DNA of 33,126 bases from positions 1 to 33,126 of the forward strand of contig JAFSAT010000006.1 of assembly GCA_017442185.1 (NCBI GenBank), read 5' to 3'. The notes below the pieces were generated by a model that did no database searches, was not told the origin of the DNA, and was given only the letters and a program-made list of their open reading frames with translations. A program made the position numbers and the translations under genes. This DNA is from Bacteroidaceae bacterium (lineage in GTDB: Bacteria; Bacteroidota; Bacteroidia; Bacteroidales; Bacteroidaceae). Every line of letters begins with the position of its first letter. Positions within the stretch are counted from its first letter, which is position 1. Below are positions 13,311 to 33,095 of this stretch, piece after piece.

Positions 13311-14003
13311 TTAAAGCAGTTTCTTGGGCTTGGTGGCCACAAAGTCTTTCAGATAGAATGGTTCGAAATAGGCAATATCTTCGAAGCGTTCATCGAGCCA
13401 TGCGCGTTCTGCAAGAGGCATCATCCAACGGGCTTTTGGTGAGTGGTATTCATCAAGAAAGTGTGCGCCGGGATGCTGTATGAGTGTTTTGCATTTTGGG
13501 GCGCCGTTTCCGAAGAAATATACAGGGTGTTTGTCCAATATCTCGGCAAAACTGTCTGCATCTACTATTACTGCGCTTGTGGGTCGCACGGCGTTGAGAG
13601 CGCGGTCGTACACTGTGGCGTATACCTCGCTGCGACGTGCGTCTATCATAGGGCACAGCAATGCTTCGTCGGGGATGTCGTCGCGGAAAAGGACGGGAAC
13701 GCTCATTATGGCTGTGGTTGGCAAGGCTATGAGTGGCAGATTGCGTCCGTAGCATACTCCTTTTGCCGTGGACGATGCAATGCGCAGGCTTGTGTAGGAG
13801 CCGGGGCCGCAACTTAGTGCTACTGCCTCTATCGTGCGTCCGCGGTCGTCGGCGTATGCTATGGCCTCTTCCACAAATGGGGCAAGCACTGTTGCATGGG
13901 AACGCTCTTCGCTGTTGTTTCTCTCAAAGAAAATCTCGCCGTCCTCGCTCAGTGCCACCGAACAGGCACCCGACGAGGCTTCTATATTTAATATAACCGC
14001 CAT
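13311..14003 (-). CDS. tsaB: tRNA threonylcarbamoyladenosine factor TsaB
   Basis: TsaB is the non-catalytic partner of TsaD (with TsaE) that makes t6A37 in ANN-decoding tRNAs. The N-terminus MAVILNIEASSGACSVAL and the segment SHATVLAPFVEEAI...ALSCGPGSYTSLRI match the ASKHA-fold TsaB family. CGPGSYTSLRI is the diagnostic motif (usually GPGSFTGLRI). At 230 aa it is the expected length. It is the first gene of the minus-strand run, so the promoter for the whole cluster should lie at 14004-14213. TAnnTTTG-like boxes reading leftward are TATTTTTG at 14076-14069 and TAATTTTG at 14085-14078. Neither has a good -33 element. Confidence 0.95.
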   Translation of the reverse strand: MAVILNIEASSGACSVALSEDGEIFFERNNSEERSHATVLAPFVEEAIAYADDRGRTIEAVALSCGPGSYTSLRIASSTAKGVCYGRNLPLIALPTTAIMSVPVLFRDDIPDEALLCPMIDARRSEVYATVYDRALNAVRPTSAVIVDADSFAEILDKHPVYFFGNGAPKCKTLIQHPGAHFLDEYHSPKARWMMPLAERAWLDERFEDIAYFEPFYLKDFVATKPKKLL

Positions 14004-14213: not shown

Positions 14214-15530
14214 TCAGTTAGCGACTTGATAATCGGTAAAATCATGTAATAGCAATTCGTACAAAGCAGTAGGTACTACTACATGTTCAATCATTACTCC
14301 CAACTTGTCTGTCGTAATATTTAGTGTGTCTGTTTTATAATCATCAGATAACAGTATTATACGTTTTGTTTTTCCTTTATATTTGTATATACTGTCCGAC
14401 AAGAATGGTGTTCTTTGTGAGAATTCCCAATCATTACAGCGAAGTAATATACGTGAGTCTGTAATACCCTCTTTAATAAAAGAAGATTCCGTGGATAAGG
14501 CTGTTGTAGGTGTAAGTTTTACAAGAAATGTTAATCCCTCTTTTTGAAAAGATTTAAAATCATCATATGTTATACTGCTTTTTGCGTCAGGCTCATCTAT
14601 TGACATATATGCGTCAATAAGGAATTTGGGGAATTTCTCACTTGTTGTATGATTATTTTTTAAGATATTTTTCATTATTTGTTTTGTTTCCTGATAACCA
14701 AATACATGGTCATATTCTATAAGAAAAAATGTAGTGAAATTCCATTTCATACGATAAATATCCTCTATCAGAGTATTTGTATTTATGGCAGTTGTCCACA
14801 ATCCCAAATGCATTCTTTGCATAATGTCTGTTTTTTCAGCCTCGAACATCCCATAACTTTTAGGATGTTCTATCTTATAGTTTATATATGATTGGGCTAC
14901 ATCGTCTATTTGAGGGTTTAACAAGAAAAATCTTTCTTTATTTTTCAATCGTTCTATGGAGTCACTAATCATATAAGATTCATATCCCAATGCAACCATA
15001 TTACATACATAATCTAAAAAATAGTCATAATAGATTTTCAATTGTTCTTCTCCTGAGCCTGAATCTAAAAAATAATTCCATAAACTTTTAATTATGCCGG
15101 GTTCCTCGAATACTTTATTCTCTTTTAAAACTAATTCAAATTTTTCAATAGCTTTATCAGTTTTTCCTTCTTTTCCGTATAATATAGCTCGATGAATATC
15201 TGTATACTTAGAACTTTCAAATTCATCTATAAATTCATCTAAATGGCTGTGTGCTTTAGAATAGTTGCCCATCTGTTCATATAGTGCAATAATTCCGCTT
15301 CTTGCTCTTCGTCTTTCGTTTTTTGAAGTTGCGTTCTTGTAGGCTTCTTTGAATATCTCAAGAGCTTTTTCTGAATTTGGCTCCTGTGATACTTGAATCA
15401 TTAATTCATGGTACCGTTGTGATTTAGCATTTTCTATACTGTCTGAATACCTGATTAAAATAACAATAACAGCAAATATGATGATAAGAAAAAGGCAACC
15501 ATAATTATGCTTTTTGTCTGGATTTTTCAT
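14214..15530 (-). CDS. Membrane-anchored TPR-like protein, partner of the TIR protein
   Basis: A 438-aa protein with a short cytosolic N-terminus, one membrane helix (about 11-27, CLFLIIIFAVIVILIRY) and a helical repeat region (about 30-150) with TPR character: EKALEIFKEAYKNA, IALYEQMGNYSKAHSHLDEF, ILYGKEGKTDKAIEKFELVL. The C-terminal third (from about residue 330) is a mixed domain with ITDSRILLRCNDWEF and KTKRIILLSDDY. It is weakly reminiscent of a PDZ-like fold but I do not recognise it. The start follows the TIR stop by one base (TAACATG), indicating translational coupling. The gene is visibly AT-rich against the tsaB cluster. It may be a sensor or scaffold for the TIR protein; this is inference from pairing and topology. 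Confidence 0.8.
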   Translation of the reverse strand: MKNPDKKHNYGCLFLIIIFAVIVILIRYSDSIENAKSQRYHELMIQVSQEPNSEKALEIFKEAYKNATSKNERRRARSGIIALYEQMGNYSKAHSHLDEFIDEFESSKYTDIHRAILYGKEGKTDKAIEKFELVLKENKVFEEPGIIKSLWNYFLDSGSGEEQLKIYYDYFLDYVCNMVALGYESYMISDSIERLKNKERFFLLNPQIDDVAQSYINYKIEHPKSYGMFEAEKTDIMQRMHLGLWTTAINTNTLIEDIYRMKWNFTTFFLIEYDHVFGYQETKQIMKNILKNNHTTSEKFPKFLIDAYMSIDEPDAKSSITYDDFKSFQKEGLTFLVKLTPTTALSTESSFIKEGITDSRILLRCNDWEFSQRTPFLSDSIYKYKGKTKRIILLSDDYKTDTLNITTDKLGVMIEHVVVPTALYELLLHDFTDYQVAN

Positions 15531-15531
15531 G

Positions 15532-16542
15532 TTATCTGTTAAACCTAATTGTTTTACTGCTATATTTATTTCGAATTACATCTTTCCAAAATGTCTTATC
15601 ATTCAGATTTTCAGATATGAGCCTAGAGTGTTGAATAGGGTATAGTACACGTTCTATTGTGCATCCAAGTCCAATACCTGCAACTACTGCAATTCCTGTG
15701 GCAATATATGTTATATAGGCTTTCCCTCCATGTGGCTTAACTTTTGATTTTGTTATTTCATAGGCTAATCCGACAGCAACACTCCAAAAACCGATACCAT
15801 ATAATTGCTCTGTGTTTAATTGGGCGTTTATTACTGTGGGAACGCTGCCAATATTCAAGTGACTGATGGAATCATTTTTAATATTATAAGTTATAATCTC
15901 ATTTGGCAGTAGGTAATAACAAATGCCATCTTCTACAATTATATTGTTAGCAACTGTTTCTATTTGTGTATCATGACTTAAGAAGAAATTATCATAAATA
16001 TACATTCCAATCCCACTAGCGAGTGTTATAATTGCATAAATTGTCAATATAATTGTTGGCACCGCAAAAAAGTCACGCCAAGTTTTTTCTTCTTGAAGAA
16101 AAATGGTTAGTTTGTCATCAAATGTTTCAGGATGATATTCTATAGAGTTCTTAAGAAATATTTTTTGATTTTTTATTTCTTCCGGGAAATCAAGTTCTTC
16201 TATTTTGATGTTATCGAATAAAACAGGAATAAATTTCAATTTCAAAGCCAATGCCTGTTTTATCTCTTCATAGTAATAATCTATATTAGCTTGGTTATTT
16301 TTTTCTACTTTATTATTTTCTGCAATACTGTTTTTAGATAATAAAAGTATAAATGCTTTGGAACTCATTAAAGCTGTGCTAATTTTCTCAGAAAAATCGC
16401 CCTCGTGTATACTATGTGTGTCAAGAAATATTCTATTTTCATCATATCCTTTTAATTTCAAGATTTCTCTTACAAGATGAGCACGGTCCGTGCTATCGGA
16501 GCGTCGATAACTTATAAAGATATCATATTTATATTTTCTCAT
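15532..16542 (-). CDS. TIR-domain membrane protein
   Basis: 336 aa. Residues 5-150 form a TIR domain: YDIFISYRRSDS (box 1), RIFLDTHSIHEGDF followed by ISTALMSSKAFILLLSKNS, then YYYEEIKQAL with E93 (or E92) at the position of the catalytic glutamate of NAD-cleaving TIR domains, and FIPVLFD. After it come probable membrane helices at about 158-182, 245-262 and 276-298, with a 60-residue segment between the first two. This predicts a cytosolic TIR tethered to the inner membrane. Bacterial TIR domains often hydrolyse NAD or make cyclic ADP-ribose signals in anti-phage defence, but membrane TIR proteins are less characterised. It lies just downstream of a SUMF1-domain remnant and is coupled to the TPR gene. 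Confidence 0.88.
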   Translation of the reverse strand: MRKYKYDIFISYRRSDSTDRAHLVREILKLKGYDENRIFLDTHSIHEGDFSEKISTALMSSKAFILLLSKNSIAENNKVEKNNQANIDYYYEEIKQALALKLKFIPVLFDNIKIEELDFPEEIKNQKIFLKNSIEYHPETFDDKLTIFLQEEKTWRDFFAVPTIILTIYAIITLASGIGMYIYDNFFLSHDTQIETVANNIIVEDGICYYLLPNEIITYNIKNDSISHLNIGSVPTVINAQLNTEQLYGIGFWSVAVGLAYEITKSKVKPHGGKAYITYIATGIAVVAGIGLGCTIERVLYPIQHSRLISENLNDKTFWKDVIRNKYSSKTIRFNR

Positions 16543-16564
16543 ATTGCAGTATCTTTAATCAAAA

Positions 16565-16702
16565 TTACTCGATATTCTCTCTTATAACTACTCTTAGTCC
16601 TAGTCCGCTGGTTTTTTTACTATACTTTGAGGGGTACCGCCTTGCCACTCGGCAGTTTTTTGCTTTATGCCACCAACTGCCACCGCGACGGATAAAAATG
16701 TT
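16565..16702 (-). pseudogene. C-terminal remnant of a SUMF1 / formylglycine-generating-enzyme-like gene
   Basis: The minus strand encodes 45 codons then a TAA at 16567-16565. The peptide contains IRRGGSWWHKAKNCRVARR and ends SGLGLRVVIRENIE. This is the C-terminal signature of SUMF1/FGE-like domains (RGGSW, R-A-R, GFR-V). In-frame stops lie immediately upstream (16705-16703 and 16708-16706), and I could not find the rest of the domain between here and the peptidase gene. It is therefore a decayed fragment. It lies 22 bases before the TIR start, on the same strand. The remnant suggests that a SUMF1-protein gene once stood upstream of the TIR/TPR pair. Confidence 0.75.
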
Positions 16703-16765: not shown

Positions 16766-18808
16766 TTATTTCAGTTCCATCTCTTCGAGAAGGTGTGATG
16801 CTCCCCCTATGCGGTCTACCACAAAGAGCACATATCTTATGTCTACCGAGATGTTGCGGCAAACAGATGGGTCAAACTCAATGTCGCTCATTGTGGAGCG
16901 CCAGGTGCGGTCGAAGTTTATTCCTATCAGTTCGCCACGGCTGTTGAGCACCGGTGAACCGGAATTTCCTCCCGAGGTGTGGTTGTCGGCTTGAAAGCAC
17001 ACAGGTACGCTGCGGCGTCCGTTTATTTCGATGCCCCAACGTCCATAGTCTTTCTTTGCGTGTATGTCGCGCAGCTCCTGCGGAATATTATAGTCGTAAA
17101 TCTCGGGGTTGTCTTTTGCAATTATGCCGTCGAGCGTGGTGAGGTGTGTGTGATACTCGCCATCGACATTTTCGTAGCCTGTTACCTCTCCGTATGCCAC
17201 TCGCAGGGTGAAGTTGGCGTCGGGATAAAAGGCACGCTCTTTGTCCCATTCGCGCAGTGCCTGCATGTAGCTGCGGTACCATTTCTCTATCTCCGGCACA
17301 TTGCTCAGATTGCGGAAAGCGTAGTTGCGACTCTCTTGTGCTATATTCTCGAACATTTTTGCAAAGGCAGCAAGCTCATCGGTTAGAATATCGGCTTTGC
17401 AGGGGAGAGTGTCGCCAAGGAGCTTTGTATTTGTGTATATGTGGTCGATGTAAGCCCCTGCGCTGCCGTGTGCCGCTATTGCTTGTTTGAGTGTATCGGG
17501 AATACGTTCCTGTGGCATGCGTTGCATAAATTCTTGCAGCATGCAGCGGGCGATGGCTTGGTCAATCTCTTTGTTGTAGCCTTTCAGATAGATGTTTTGT
17601 ATGTTTGTCATTTGCTGCTCATCGTCTGAGCGTGCGAGTAGGGCCGCCATTCGGTAGGCCTCGATGCTGCCCACCGACTCGTTGAAAAGTTCACGCGCAA
17701 AGTAGTGGGGGATAATCTTCTCGTATGCAGCGTGCATGCTGTCGAGCAGAGTGCTGTATTTAGGGTTGTTTGCGGCCCATGCTGCAAAATCTCTCTCATA
17801 CTGTTGCTTCTTTGCCACAGTGCCCAAGCGTTGCAGACCCAAAGACTCTCCTTGCCATTTTTTCCAAGCATTGGCTATTGAGGCGTGTTTGGCCGCGTAT
17901 GCTATGCGCACTGCTGCGTCTTTTGCTTGTGCTGCCGATATTATTTCGAGCCGTTGTGTGCGCAGAGCTATCTTCATGGGGTTGGACGTTTCGGCAACAT
18001 ATCTTACAGCGTCTGATGTTACATATTCCTGTGTGTTTCCCGGGAAACCGTATATCATTGTAAAATCTCCCTCTTTTATTCCATTTGTGGAGATTTTAAA
18101 GTGACGTTTGGGACGATAGGGACGGTTCTGTGCCGAGTAGTCGGCGGGTTGATTGTCGGCATCGGCATATACTCTGAATATCGAGAAGTCACCTGTGTGG
18201 CGCGGCCACATCCAATTGTCGGTGTCTCCGCCAAATTTGCCTATCGACGATGGTGGAGCACCCACCAAGCGCACATCGCGGAATGTTTGATAAACAAACA
18301 GATATTGGCGGTTGCCATAGTACATGCTTTCTATTGTGGCACGCATGCCCTCTCCTTTGGCTGTGGCATCGGCTTTTATTGCTTCGGGATTTTCGCCTGC
18401 TGCCATGCGTTCGGTAATATCCTCCATGCTCACAAGCAGGCTCACTGTGAGGCCGGGCACAGGCAGCTCTTCCGATTGTGATTTTGCCCAATAGCCGTAG
18501 GTCAGATAGTCGTGCTCCACAGATGATAGCTTTTGTATGGAACTGTATCCGCAATGGTGGTTGGTAAGAAGCAACCCTTGTGACGAGATAAATTCGCCTG
18601 TGCATCCTCCTCCAAACTGCACCACAGCATCCTTGAGCGAGGCTTTCTCTGTCGAATATACGTCGTCGGCTTTCAAGCGGAAGCCTTTGCTGCGCATATC
18701 TTTTATGCGCTCTTTGATGAGGTTCGGGAGCCACATACCCTCGTCGGCGTGCATGGTGTTACAGAGTGTGAAGCAGGCCAATGTGCAAAGTATCAGTTTC
18801 TTTATCAT
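16766..18808 (-). CDS. S46 dipeptidyl peptidase, DPP11-type
   Basis: A secreted serine exopeptidase that removes dipeptides from peptide N-termini. The ATG at 18808 (680 aa) gives a signal peptide (MIKKLILCTLACFTLCNTMHA); an upstream in-frame ATG would add 23 residues and was rejected. Catalytic-triad motifs are LLTNHHCGY (His), DNWMWPRHTGDFS (Asp) and GGNSGSPV (Ser616). The residue 18 positions after this Ser is Arg634 (NFDRTW). In S46 enzymes Arg here marks DPP11 (Asp/Glu at P1) and Gly marks DPP7 (hydrophobic P1). The protein probably feeds peptide catabolism in the periplasm. A leftward TATTTTTG at 18849-18842 with TTG 22 bases further upstream is a plausible promoter. It ends about 60 bases before the SUMF1 remnant. 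Confidence 0.94.
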   Translation of the reverse strand: MIKKLILCTLACFTLCNTMHADEGMWLPNLIKERIKDMRSKGFRLKADDVYSTEKASLKDAVVQFGGGCTGEFISSQGLLLTNHHCGYSSIQKLSSVEHDYLTYGYWAKSQSEELPVPGLTVSLLVSMEDITERMAAGENPEAIKADATAKGEGMRATIESMYYGNRQYLFVYQTFRDVRLVGAPPSSIGKFGGDTDNWMWPRHTGDFSIFRVYADADNQPADYSAQNRPYRPKRHFKISTNGIKEGDFTMIYGFPGNTQEYVTSDAVRYVAETSNPMKIALRTQRLEIISAAQAKDAAVRIAYAAKHASIANAWKKWQGESLGLQRLGTVAKKQQYERDFAAWAANNPKYSTLLDSMHAAYEKIIPHYFARELFNESVGSIEAYRMAALLARSDDEQQMTNIQNIYLKGYNKEIDQAIARCMLQEFMQRMPQERIPDTLKQAIAAHGSAGAYIDHIYTNTKLLGDTLPCKADILTDELAAFAKMFENIAQESRNYAFRNLSNVPEIEKWYRSYMQALREWDKERAFYPDANFTLRVAYGEVTGYENVDGEYHTHLTTLDGIIAKDNPEIYDYNIPQELRDIHAKKDYGRWGIEINGRRSVPVCFQADNHTSGGNSGSPVLNSRGELIGINFDRTWRSTMSDIEFDPSVCRNISVDIRYVLFVVDRIGGASHLLEEMELK

Positions 18809-18841
18809 TTGTGTAGTTTTTGTGTGTTTGTGAAATTTTGT

Positions 18842-18874
18842 CAAAAATACACTTTTTACCGATAAATAAAGCAA
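18842..18874 (-). promoter_or_regulatory. Possible promoter of the S46 peptidase gene
   Basis: On the minus strand TATTTTTG (18849-18842) matches TAnnTTTG, and TTG (18874-18872) lies 22 bases upstream, slightly more than the usual 19-21. The leader to the ATG at 18808 would be about 30 nt. The spacing makes this moderate evidence only. Confidence 0.4.
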
Positions 18875-18893
18875 CAAAAGGGGTGAAATTCTC

Positions 18894-31361: not shown

Positions 31362-32753
31362 TTAGTTCTTTAATTCTTTACGAATTCTTTTTCTTATTTC
31401 TTCTCGCTCCTCGCTATATTGGTATTGAAAACTTGCTATTTTGCGTTTTTGTTCTTCTTCTTTGTCCTTTTCTATTTTAGCTCGTAGTTTAGCGCATTTT
31501 TCTTCCATAATTCTACGCCTTTCAATTTCTTTTGTGTCTTTAGCAGTGATTGGATTTTGGGTTATTATTGCTGTTTCTTCTAAATTTCTTAATTTGTTTA
31601 TTATATTATAGATTCGATTACCCTCTTCGTATTTGGTAAATATTAGATTTATTTTTTGTGAAAAGATTTCAAGTTCCAACAATCCAACTTCCAAAATAGC
31701 ATTAAACTTGTTATCAGTTATTCTTATTTCAGGGGTAGAATCGCAATGGCGAATCAAACTTCTTCTTTCAGATTCTAATGAGGTAAACATTTTGTTATAG
31801 CAAGTATCAATAACAGTTTGTTTATATGATAGTATAACATCCTCATAACCAATAACTACAAAATCTTTCTTATTGGATAAAATTAAAAAGGTATCATACA
31901 ATAGAATTTGTATATTTCTGCCTAATAGGGGTATTAAGGGTTTTTTACTAACCTTTGGAGTGTTAATTCCGTTATCTACCAAAAGACATTCTTCGTTAAT
32001 GTTAATAGCTTGCTTGTTGTCAAATTGTTTGTTAATTTCAAAATATACATAACCTTTGAACTTGGGATACTCTGTATATTGGTAATCATTACTGATTGCT
32101 ACAACAGGTTCCTTGTAAGGTTTTAATGATTGATTTTCTGGATATTTTAATTTGATTTTATTTATTTCTTCCAAGGAAGATTTTATTATATCTTGGCAAT
32201 ATTTTACTTTTTGTTCACTTAATGTATTTGCGATTAGTGCATTTTGATAATGTATTATTTTCTTCTGCAAGTTAATAATTTCAGGATGAATCTTATTGTT
32301 GTTATCTATTATCTCATAATAATTACTCCTTATACTATTATATGCCTTATCTTGTACACAAGATATGATATTATTTAGCCATTCATTGTCTTTGTTGTCA
32401 ATATTCACCAATTCTATTTTTTCTTTTTCTTCATGTTTTGTAAATGACTCAACAACTAAACTGATTATCACACCCCAAATAATAATTGGGATAATTAATA
32501 ATGGTAGTGTCAAGAAACATTCAAAAGCAAGACTTATCAGTGGTATAAAAAGTGGTATTAATGCTATTCCAATAATAATAAGTATTACAGCGAAAGTTTT
32601 ACTTATTGGTTCACTATCATTGTTGTACGATGTGTTAGGTATAGAGTCTGCTACTGCAAAAGGAGCTACAATACTCCACGCAATCAATGTGGAAATAAGA
32701 TTTGTTCCCCATTTTGTATTTCTTTTACTAAAAGGGTCGTTTCTTCTAGCCAT
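31362..32753 (-). CDS. Membrane protein with coiled-coil C-terminus, partner of an XRE regulator
   Basis: 463 aa from the ATG at 32753 (MARRNDPF); a TTG 48 bases upstream is a poorer start. Two or three membrane helices lie near the N-terminus: about 18-35 (NLISTLIAWSIVAPF) and a long hydrophobic run of about 53-102 that should cross twice. The large remainder is cytosolic and lysine/glutamate-rich. A middle part, NIQILLYDTFLILSNKKDFVVIGYEDVIL, is faintly like a PH-type beta domain. The last 70 residues form a strongly charged helix (about 410-463). I do not recognise a family. The sequence is AT-rich and lies just downstream of a small XRE gene on the same strand, which suggests an autoregulated accessory pair. 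Confidence 0.75.
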   Translation of the reverse strand: MARRNDPFSKRNTKWGTNLISTLIAWSIVAPFAVADSIPNTSYNNDSEPISKTFAVILIIIGIALIPLFIPLISLAFECFLTLPLLIIPIIIWGVIISLVVESFTKHEEKEKIELVNIDNKDNEWLNNIISCVQDKAYNSIRSNYYEIIDNNNKIHPEIINLQKKIIHYQNALIANTLSEQKVKYCQDIIKSSLEEINKIKLKYPENQSLKPYKEPVVAISNDYQYTEYPKFKGYVYFEINKQFDNKQAININEECLLVDNGINTPKVSKKPLIPLLGRNIQILLYDTFLILSNKKDFVVIGYEDVILSYKQTVIDTCYNKMFTSLESERRSLIRHCDSTPEIRITDNKFNAILEVGLLELEIFSQKINLIFTKYEEGNRIYNIINKLRNLEETAIITQNPITAKDTKEIERRRIMEEKCAKLRAKIEKDKEEEQKRKIASFQYQYSEEREEIRKRIRKELKN

Positions 32754-32810
32754 ATATTTAGTATTAGTAAGGTTGCTAATTTTGATAAAGTAAATTATCA
32801 ATTTTATTAA

Positions 32811-33095
32811 CTATTTAAGCAAGTTATCTAATTCGCTCCTGCAGTTGAATTGATATATCTTTCCTCTTATCTTAATAAATCCCTCTACAGCCTCATCGCC
32901 CATAGGTTCAAAAAGGGATTTTACACTAACACCAAGAGCAACAGCCATTTTCTCAATGGTATCTAACCTTGCGTTACCATACATCGCTCTCGTTAGACTT
33001 GAAGCGTCAATATCCATGTCGCTTGCAAGGTCTTTAAGTTGCTTGCCTTGTTGCTTGCAAAGGCGTTTTACATTTTCTGCCAATATCTTTTCCAT
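32811..33095 (-). CDS. XRE-family helix-turn-helix regulator
   Basis: A 94-aa DNA-binding protein. Residues about 5-62 form an HTH_3/XRE domain: NVKRLCKQQGKQLKDLASDMDIDASSLTRAM...LDTIEKMAVALGVSVKSLF. A short C-terminal extension, VEGFIKIRGKIYQFNCRSELDNLL, is a beta-hairpin-plus-helix tail I associate with Bacteroidales XRE proteins. It starts 31 bases from the window edge, so its promoter is at or beyond the border. The next gene begins 57 bases downstream on the same strand (10 bases if the TTG start is used). It probably represses its own operon; this is inference from size and position. Confidence 0.88.
   Translation of the reverse strand: MEKILAENVKRLCKQQGKQLKDLASDMDIDASSLTRAMYGNARLDTIEKMAVALGVSVKSLFEPMGDEAVEGFIKIRGKIYQFNCRSELDNLLK

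Follow-up and report, generated by a model that had tools for sequence, protein, structure and literature searches.

The closest solved relatives of the TIR domain considered here are the nicotinamide adenine dinucleotide (NAD) hydrolases SARM1 and tir-1, and among defence systems the two-gene Thoeris (ThsB with ThsA; ThcB4 in NCBIfam) offers the nearest comparison. Phage proteins with an RyR domain, in turn, are described in the available part of PMC13232231 as binding or cleaving 2'/3' cyclic ADP-ribose (2'/3'cADPR) via H75, W78, H100 and D117. Here we analyzed a stretch of 33,126 nucleotides from a Bacteroidaceae genome (contig JAFSAT010000006.1; the window), in which two adjacent minus-strand genes encode a TIR-membrane protein and a TPR-like membrane protein (Table 1). 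Their coordinates, strand and lengths are as an earlier note, made from the sequence alone, had given them, and so is the junction TAA-C-ATG, in which a single base separates the stop of the TIR gene from the start of the TPR gene. No model of PADLOC 2.0.0 (2023) fits the pair, and no description of it was found in the literature searched by title and abstract opening.

Our preferred interpretation, held with slightly more confidence than doubt, is that the two genes form one co-translated membrane module of a TIR protein and a TPR-like partner or sensor with triggered NAD+ cleavage. The most likely role would be that of a membrane TIR sensor/effector pair in conflict islands, probably directed against phages. 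The TIR protein would hold a cytosolic SARM1-like TIR domain at the inner membrane by its own C-terminal helices, and the TPR-like protein would be its membrane-anchored partner and sensor. A trigger perceived by this partner, most likely an invader-related or envelope event, would bring TIR domains together, and the resulting cleavage would either drain NAD+ or make an ADP-ribose-type signal.

The pair is conserved but rare, and it occurs together where found. In overlapping genome samples from the family, the order, the phylum and a second family, the TPR protein was matched in 8 of 301 family genomes, at full length in the window genome only, and in 10 of 393 order genomes, with full-length matches confined to the window genome and a genome of a different family of the same order (G687). 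The C-terminal half of the TIR protein (197 aa) was found in the same two of the 393 order genomes, and a profile of this half matched one of 395 phylum genomes (the window's own) and one of 149 genomes of G687's family (G687). In G687 the two genes are again adjacent and in the same order, with a gap of 2 nt and products of 329 and 438 aa. Identity between the TIR proteins is 45% from end to end, including the membrane part, and that between the TPR proteins is 25% (E 3.4e-42). The co-occurrence proposed in the earlier note thus stands as far as adjacency, a near-zero gap and similar lengths in G687 are concerned, while its constancy does not reach beyond these two genomes. A contig scan with the single TIR protein gave no match, and one with the TIR alignment retained 80 of 188 loci (L170-L249, the TIR-relative loci). 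Profiles of both proteins, run on the ORFs (open reading frames) of 250 loci, found full-length matches in the window and G687 only, besides a hybrid scrap in G687 and one weak TPR match (L164, E 0.0015). This hybrid is a 150-aa ORF (L169:13661-14113). Its first 163 bp share 96% identity with the TIR gene at 17178, and another 255 bp share 94% with the central part of the TPR gene; it is a recombination scrap, which suggests that a second TPR copy once followed a TIR gene.

On profile evidence the TIR assignment is certain, as the TIR_2 match at residues 8-117 reaches 42.4 bits against a curated cut-off of 28, in line with what had been read from the sequence by eye. We collected 163 distinct TIR ORFs, 142 of them with an aligned stretch of at least 91 aa. 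The column of E93, which the earlier note had singled out as an intact candidate catalytic residue, is indeed conserved, with glutamate in 137 of these 142 stretches; tryptophan stands four positions before it in 110 of the 142, and the window protein has tyrosine there. A search of the PDB with the TIR profile returned 19 sequences at E<=0.01, all of them SARM1 or tir-1 (best E 8.7e-13), and E93 aligns with the glutamate of a KEL motif in both tir-1 chains whose alignments were printed, a glutamate that we take to be the catalytic residue. In a tree of the 142 stretches the window and G687 proteins are sisters (weakly supported, 0.49) within a clade of eight (0.85). As the members of this clade differ in length (237-544 aa) and in their C-terminal parts, TIR modules seem to be joined to varied partners.

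Table 1: Features of the TIR-TPR island and its flanks in the window (position 1 is the first nucleotide of the window).
Feature	Position	Strand	Basis
TIR-membrane protein, 336 aa	15532..16542	-	ORF; TIR_2 E 1.1e-10; G687 homologue 45% identical over full length
TIR domain, SARM1/tir-1-like, about residues 1-145	16108..16542	-	Pfam, alignment, PDB profile
Codon of candidate catalytic E93	16264..16266	-	sequence; aligned TIR stretches; tir-1 chains
Membrane helix 1, residues 158-176	16015..16071	-	hydropathy 2.08; K+R 3 before, 0 after (G687: 4, 1)
Weakly hydrophobic stretch, residues 246-264, possible further membrane helix	15751..15807	-	hydropathy 0.96; no such peak listed for G687 homologue
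Membrane helix, residues 277-295, conserved AVVAGxGLGCTIE	15658..15714	-	hydropathy 1.74; conserved columns
TPR-like protein with N-terminal membrane helix, 438 aa	14214..15530	-	ORF; same-length G687 homologue
N-terminal membrane helix of TPR protein, residues 11-29	15444..15500	-	hydropathy 2.62
Best TPR-like repeat, residues 113-138	15117..15194	-	TPR_2 E 3e-4, below curated cut-off
3' end of TIR-SUMF1 (FGE-sulfatase) gene, rest of gene absent at locus	16565..16702	-	frame; match to L148:958-2523(-)
Flanking TsaD/TsaB-family gene	13311..14003	-	PF00814 E 5.6e-21
Flanking S46 peptidase gene	16766..18877	-	PF10459 E 2.6e-204

Within the TIR-membrane protein the charge bias around the first helix would place the TIR domain in the cytosol, and the protein shares this layout with a wider group. 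Among 130 ORFs with an N-terminal TIR domain, 90 (the two TIR proteins of the pair included) have a membrane helix within about 60 aa after it. Lysine plus arginine is more frequent before than after this helix in 80 of the 90, with ties in 10 and no reversal, and 87 carry at least 100 residues beyond it. The bias in the 80 relatives points to a cytosolic TIR domain and an outer C-terminus, and the window TIR fits with an N-terminal TIR followed by a membrane helix whose positive side is inside. The module may accordingly be placed within a broad membrane-TIR set of Bacteroidota and Clostridia, in which cytosolic TIR, helix and long outer part would lie in one chain; in the window pair the partner part would sit on a second chain.

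Two-gene layouts recur in this group as well. A same-strand ORF of at least 120 aa begins within 120 bases downstream of 21 of the 31 TIR+SUMF1 ORFs. In 16 of the 19 TIR+SUMF1 ORFs with a membrane helix the next gene is at most 60 bases away, and all 16 of these next genes have a hydrophobic N-terminus, compared with 96 of 254 next genes of non-TIR ORFs from the TIR-relative loci; a membrane TIR protein with an exported or anchored partner therefore recurs, clearly for the SUMF1 type only. Of the 21 partners, 19 were read, all but a 1025-aa protein and the one from a genome of the window's genus (G304): 18 have 200-248 aa and one has 140 aa, most with signal-peptide-like starts, and six that were scanned had no Pfam family above cut-off. 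The idea that a TIR gene directly follows each TIR-SUMF1 gene was dropped, as none of the 21 close downstream ORFs scored as TIR. Elsewhere, in the window genome (L305:1370-6909) and in genome G186 (L309:6157-12156), a gene with a C-terminal TIR match adjoins a large gene that looks NTPase-like by eye, a possible further conflict pair.

The TPR-like protein is the less secure half of the pair. For the TPR-like identity given in the earlier note, TPR models match only weakly, with the best of them (TPR_2) below cut-off; the N-terminal membrane helix that the note described is present. A PDB search with a profile of both homologues returned mostly PPR and TPR repeat proteins, most of them without any single passing stretch. 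A C-terminal PDZ domain, suggested by eye from relatives with TIR, membrane helix and PDZ in one chain, was rejected: its profile score of 16.6 lay within those of 40 column shuffles, which went up to 18.6, and neither comparing one such relative over the whole length nor a Pfam scan of the last 120 aa gave a match.

Several observations weigh against our interpretation. With TPR signatures below the Pfam cut-offs (best E 3e-4), the TPR assignment is weak. Around the TPR helix the charge bias is slight and changes direction between the homologues (3 before and 2 after in the window, 1 and 3 in G687), pointing to no consistent membrane side; it lends no support to the matching topology that the earlier note had read into the two proteins. 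A second hydrophobic stretch at residues 410-428 of the TPR protein (1.57 in the window, 1.22 in G687) finds no place in our interpretation. G687 is the single independent second occurrence. The next genes of membrane TIR genes without SUMF1 have a hydrophobic N-terminus in 11 of 33 cases, with no excess over the control. Finally, no known defence system neighbours the pair among the window ORFs scanned, because these gave no or only weak PADLOC matches: none at E<=0.001 for the ten nearest other ORFs, while among ten further ones a QueC-like gene matched weakly and in part and a 94-aa ORF (32811-33095) had two weak matches.

An alternative is a Thoeris-like split, which we consider unlikely and in which the TIR protein would sense and make an ADP-ribose-type signal and the TPR membrane protein would be a signal-activated, membrane-damaging effector. 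It would account for the two-gene size and the combination of a TIR with a membrane protein, and in NCBIfam the TIR domain matches ThcB4 of Thoeris type III best (E 3.3e-10, residues 8-69), though at 39.4 bits far under the cut-off of 220. Burroughs and Aravind are also said to have predicted, in 2020, a TPR scaffold that reads NAD+-derived signals. Nevertheless, the TIR protein too is anchored in the membrane, by a part that is conserved, and the TPR protein has no PADLOC family at E<=1 and no listed SIR2, macro or TPR-S Pfam model; TPR-S, presumably present in Pfam, was listed neither for the window protein (E<=1) nor for its homologue (E<=0.1).

A link to RyR proteins became visible in the TIR-relative loci. 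With an RyR profile built from 8 seeds, to which L170 and L193 contributed, RyR was found in 28 of the 80 TIR-relative loci (1295 kb) and in none of 46 congener control stretches (477 kb), a rough comparison because the control taxa differ. Without the two seed loci the count is 26 of 78; it is 26 of 67 in loci holding a TIR-helix protein versus 2 of 13 in those without. The RyR-bearing loci come mainly from Bacteroidales and Clostridia, and across 45 genomes the number of RyR matches per genome ranges from 0 to 6. PrsW was present in 10 of the 80 loci, three being seed-giving loci. Among 63 RyR stretches that contain the H..W motif, 41 have the H/W/H/D residues of the phage proteins at identical spacing, 13 have threonine at the third position and 9 have other residues. 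Bacterial TIR-RyR gene clusters go unmentioned in the available part of PMC13232231.

The G687 pair does have RyR genes nearby. It lies in a 20-kb cluster (L169:1-19901, contig C16) that also holds an RyR protein, an M48 peptidase, a protein with TIR, membrane helix and SUMF1, two further SUMF1-domain proteins, a BspA-type leucine-rich repeat (LRR) protein, a kinase-transglutaminase-TIR protein, a TIR protein with a weak PDZ match and a PrsW-RyR fusion. In the window no RyR gene was seen, and the two RyR matches of its genome are both on contig C40, the window being on C3. They correspond to two small RyR proteins encoded side by side, with a Cas7 gene and a repeat-like stretch upstream of them (L303:3020-7870).

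From these data one may tentatively propose, as an attractive but rather unlikely extension, a large family of transmembrane TIR receptors in Bacteroidota and Clostridia that share the topology of Toll-like receptors, with the sensor outside, a single membrane helix and the TIR inside. Such receptors would sense events at the envelope or caused by invaders and produce ADP-ribose-type signals read by RyR proteins, partly by RyR-fused PrsW proteases, and the window pair would be a split, two-protein receptor. The wider membrane-TIR group with its RyR neighbours is little described and is the more far-reaching lead. If true, bacteria would use membrane TIR proteins as receptors, beyond cytosolic signal making, mirroring the layout of Toll-like receptors, and the link between TIR signal and RyR could be tested inside one gene cluster, that of G687 (L169).

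The RyR and PrsW counts, the RyR protein and PrsW-RyR fusion in the G687 cluster and the two RyR genes of the window genome would suit stress signalling instead of defence, with membrane TIRs reporting the state of the envelope by an ADP-ribose-type messenger to RyR proteins, some of them PrsW-fused. We regard this as improbable: the RyR genes of the window genome are on another contig near a Cas7 gene, away from the pair, the first gene of the G687 stretch, beside the RyR gene, resembles a sigma factor only by eye, the piece scanned matching nothing in Pfam at E<=0.001, and conflict genes better suit the rarity of the pair.

We return to the proposed TIR-TPR module and its place in the genome. 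On the minus strand the S46 peptidase gene is followed by a short 3' scrap of a TIR-SUMF1 gene, the TIR-membrane gene, which starts 22 bases past the stop of the scrap, the TPR-membrane gene and a gene which we take to be TsaB. The AT-rich island described in the earlier note is borne out by a guanine-plus-cytosine (GC) content of 0.31 at 14-16 kb against 0.47-0.51 at 12-14 and 17-19 kb, and this low GC and the rarity of the pair are in keeping with horizontal movement of conflict genes. Of 44 genus genomes, 42 match the TsaB-like gene over nearly its full length, one matches it weakly and one not at all. The gene adjoins a DUF4290 gene in all 40 congener loci; its other neighbour was a gene that is presumably yicC in 5 of 6 loci read closely. 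Neither the pair nor the S46 gene was matched beside it in the stretches examined from these 40 loci, some of them short. As the S46 gene has different surroundings in congeners and the two flanking genes are not neighbours in the congener stretches examined, the island is positioned at a break in gene order, and a reconstruction of the empty site was ruled out for the same reason.

Between 13900 and 17000 the search for mobile-element boundaries gave only short repeats (16-24 nt, 75-88% alike), none of which read as island flanks, and promoter and terminator scans gave no score beyond shuffled sequences. In the phage collection neither protein had a match; among plasmids the TIR protein matched one TIR-domain-only record and the island DNA nothing (the TPR protein was not searched there as protein), and viral contigs yielded one TIR-only locus without the pair. 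By Pfam the ten nearest ORFs are DXP reductoisomerase, M23, RimM, EPSP-synthase family, DUF4290, TsaD family, S46, an ECF-type sigma factor, or without match. A second AT-rich stretch (31362-33095, GC 0.29-0.30) holds a 479-aa ORF and the 94-aa ORF, which weakly matches a PADLOC control-protein model.

The scrap is the tail, about the last 44 codons, of a separate TIR-SUMF1 gene, as judged from its match in G304, which lies well beyond shuffled peptides. When searched against 30 loci retrieved from 13 genomes with FGE-sulfatase, it was 84% identical over 44 aa (E 2e-23; DNA 73% over 136 bp) to L148:958-2523(-), an intact 522-aa protein with TIR_2 (4e-11) and FGE-sulfatase (2e-43) domains, and the best of 20 shuffled scrap peptides reached E 0.004. 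The SUMF1 scar seen in the earlier note is thereby confirmed; Pfam lists no FGE-sulfatase match at E<=1 for the 43-aa scrap peptide, only a sub-threshold Magi-toxin match (0.02). In G304 the next gene begins 14 bases past the TIR-SUMF1 gene and encodes a different protein interrupted by the contig end; the by-eye idea that it ends in a TIR start was dropped, the contig-end piece having no Pfam match at E<=0.001. As the two FGE-sulfatase and four TIR_2 matches of the window genome (94.5% complete), the window's own included, are at different places, no intact TIR-SUMF1 gene was seen in it. The conclusion that a third component was lost is right in that a TIR-SUMF1 gene is truncated here and too strong otherwise, because the corresponding gene for a TIR-membrane helix-SUMF1 protein in G687 is separate, 5.6 kb upstream of the pair and unjoined; a truncated neighbouring TIR module fits the scrap. 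That the whole island is a decaying remnant of a TIR cluster with a pair no longer functional is very doubtful, for in spite of the gene in front being reduced to its last ~44 codons, the absence of a promoter above chance and the TIR/TPR hybrid scrap in G687, both genes are open, reach the full length of their distant homologues (336 aa compared with 329 for the TIR protein, 438 aa in both for the TPR protein) and retain the tight stop-start junction.

Compared with known systems, the pair shows no sign of CBASS or Pycsar: Pfam lists no SAVED, STING or cyclase domain for either protein, the SAVED_TIR models of PADLOC match the TIR stretch only, and no cyclase gene was found in the ten nearest ORFs by Pfam or PADLOC. 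This agrees with the earlier note, which had seen no ThsA, cyclase or SAVED/STING partner, and none was found by these two collections in the pair or the ten nearest ORFs. With Thoeris the pair shares a TIR domain with a conserved glutamate and the two-gene size. In contrast to Thoeris its TIR protein is membrane-bound, no ThsA-like partner was found (Pfam and PADLOC, TPR protein and ten nearest ORFs), and a full-length ThsB or ThcB4 match failed, the ThsB model matching only residues 7-67 of the TIR stretch. Conflict systems combining TIR, FGE/SUMF1 and TPR use the same domain vocabulary (eLife 2020 e52696; eLife 2021 e70394), but those in the available parts of the two papers are MoxR-vWA, STAND or death-like-domain systems, none of which Pfam detects in the ten nearest window ORFs. 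RyDEP, as far as the available part of PMC13232231 describes it, is comparable in that relatives of its RyR domain lie near many TIR relatives and often keep the four ligand residues; it differs in being a phage protein against Thoeris, and the window shows no RyR gene. The resemblance to SARM1 and tir-1 is confined to the TIR part, and the window protein is bacterial and membrane-anchored with an N-terminal TIR. The membrane TIR-SUMF1 two-gene units (L183, L193 and others) differ from the pair in carrying an FGE domain in the TIR chain and a mostly 200-248-aa exported-type partner unmatched by the TPR profile, but they share with it an N-terminal TIR domain, a membrane helix and a close downstream gene with a hydrophobic N-terminus.

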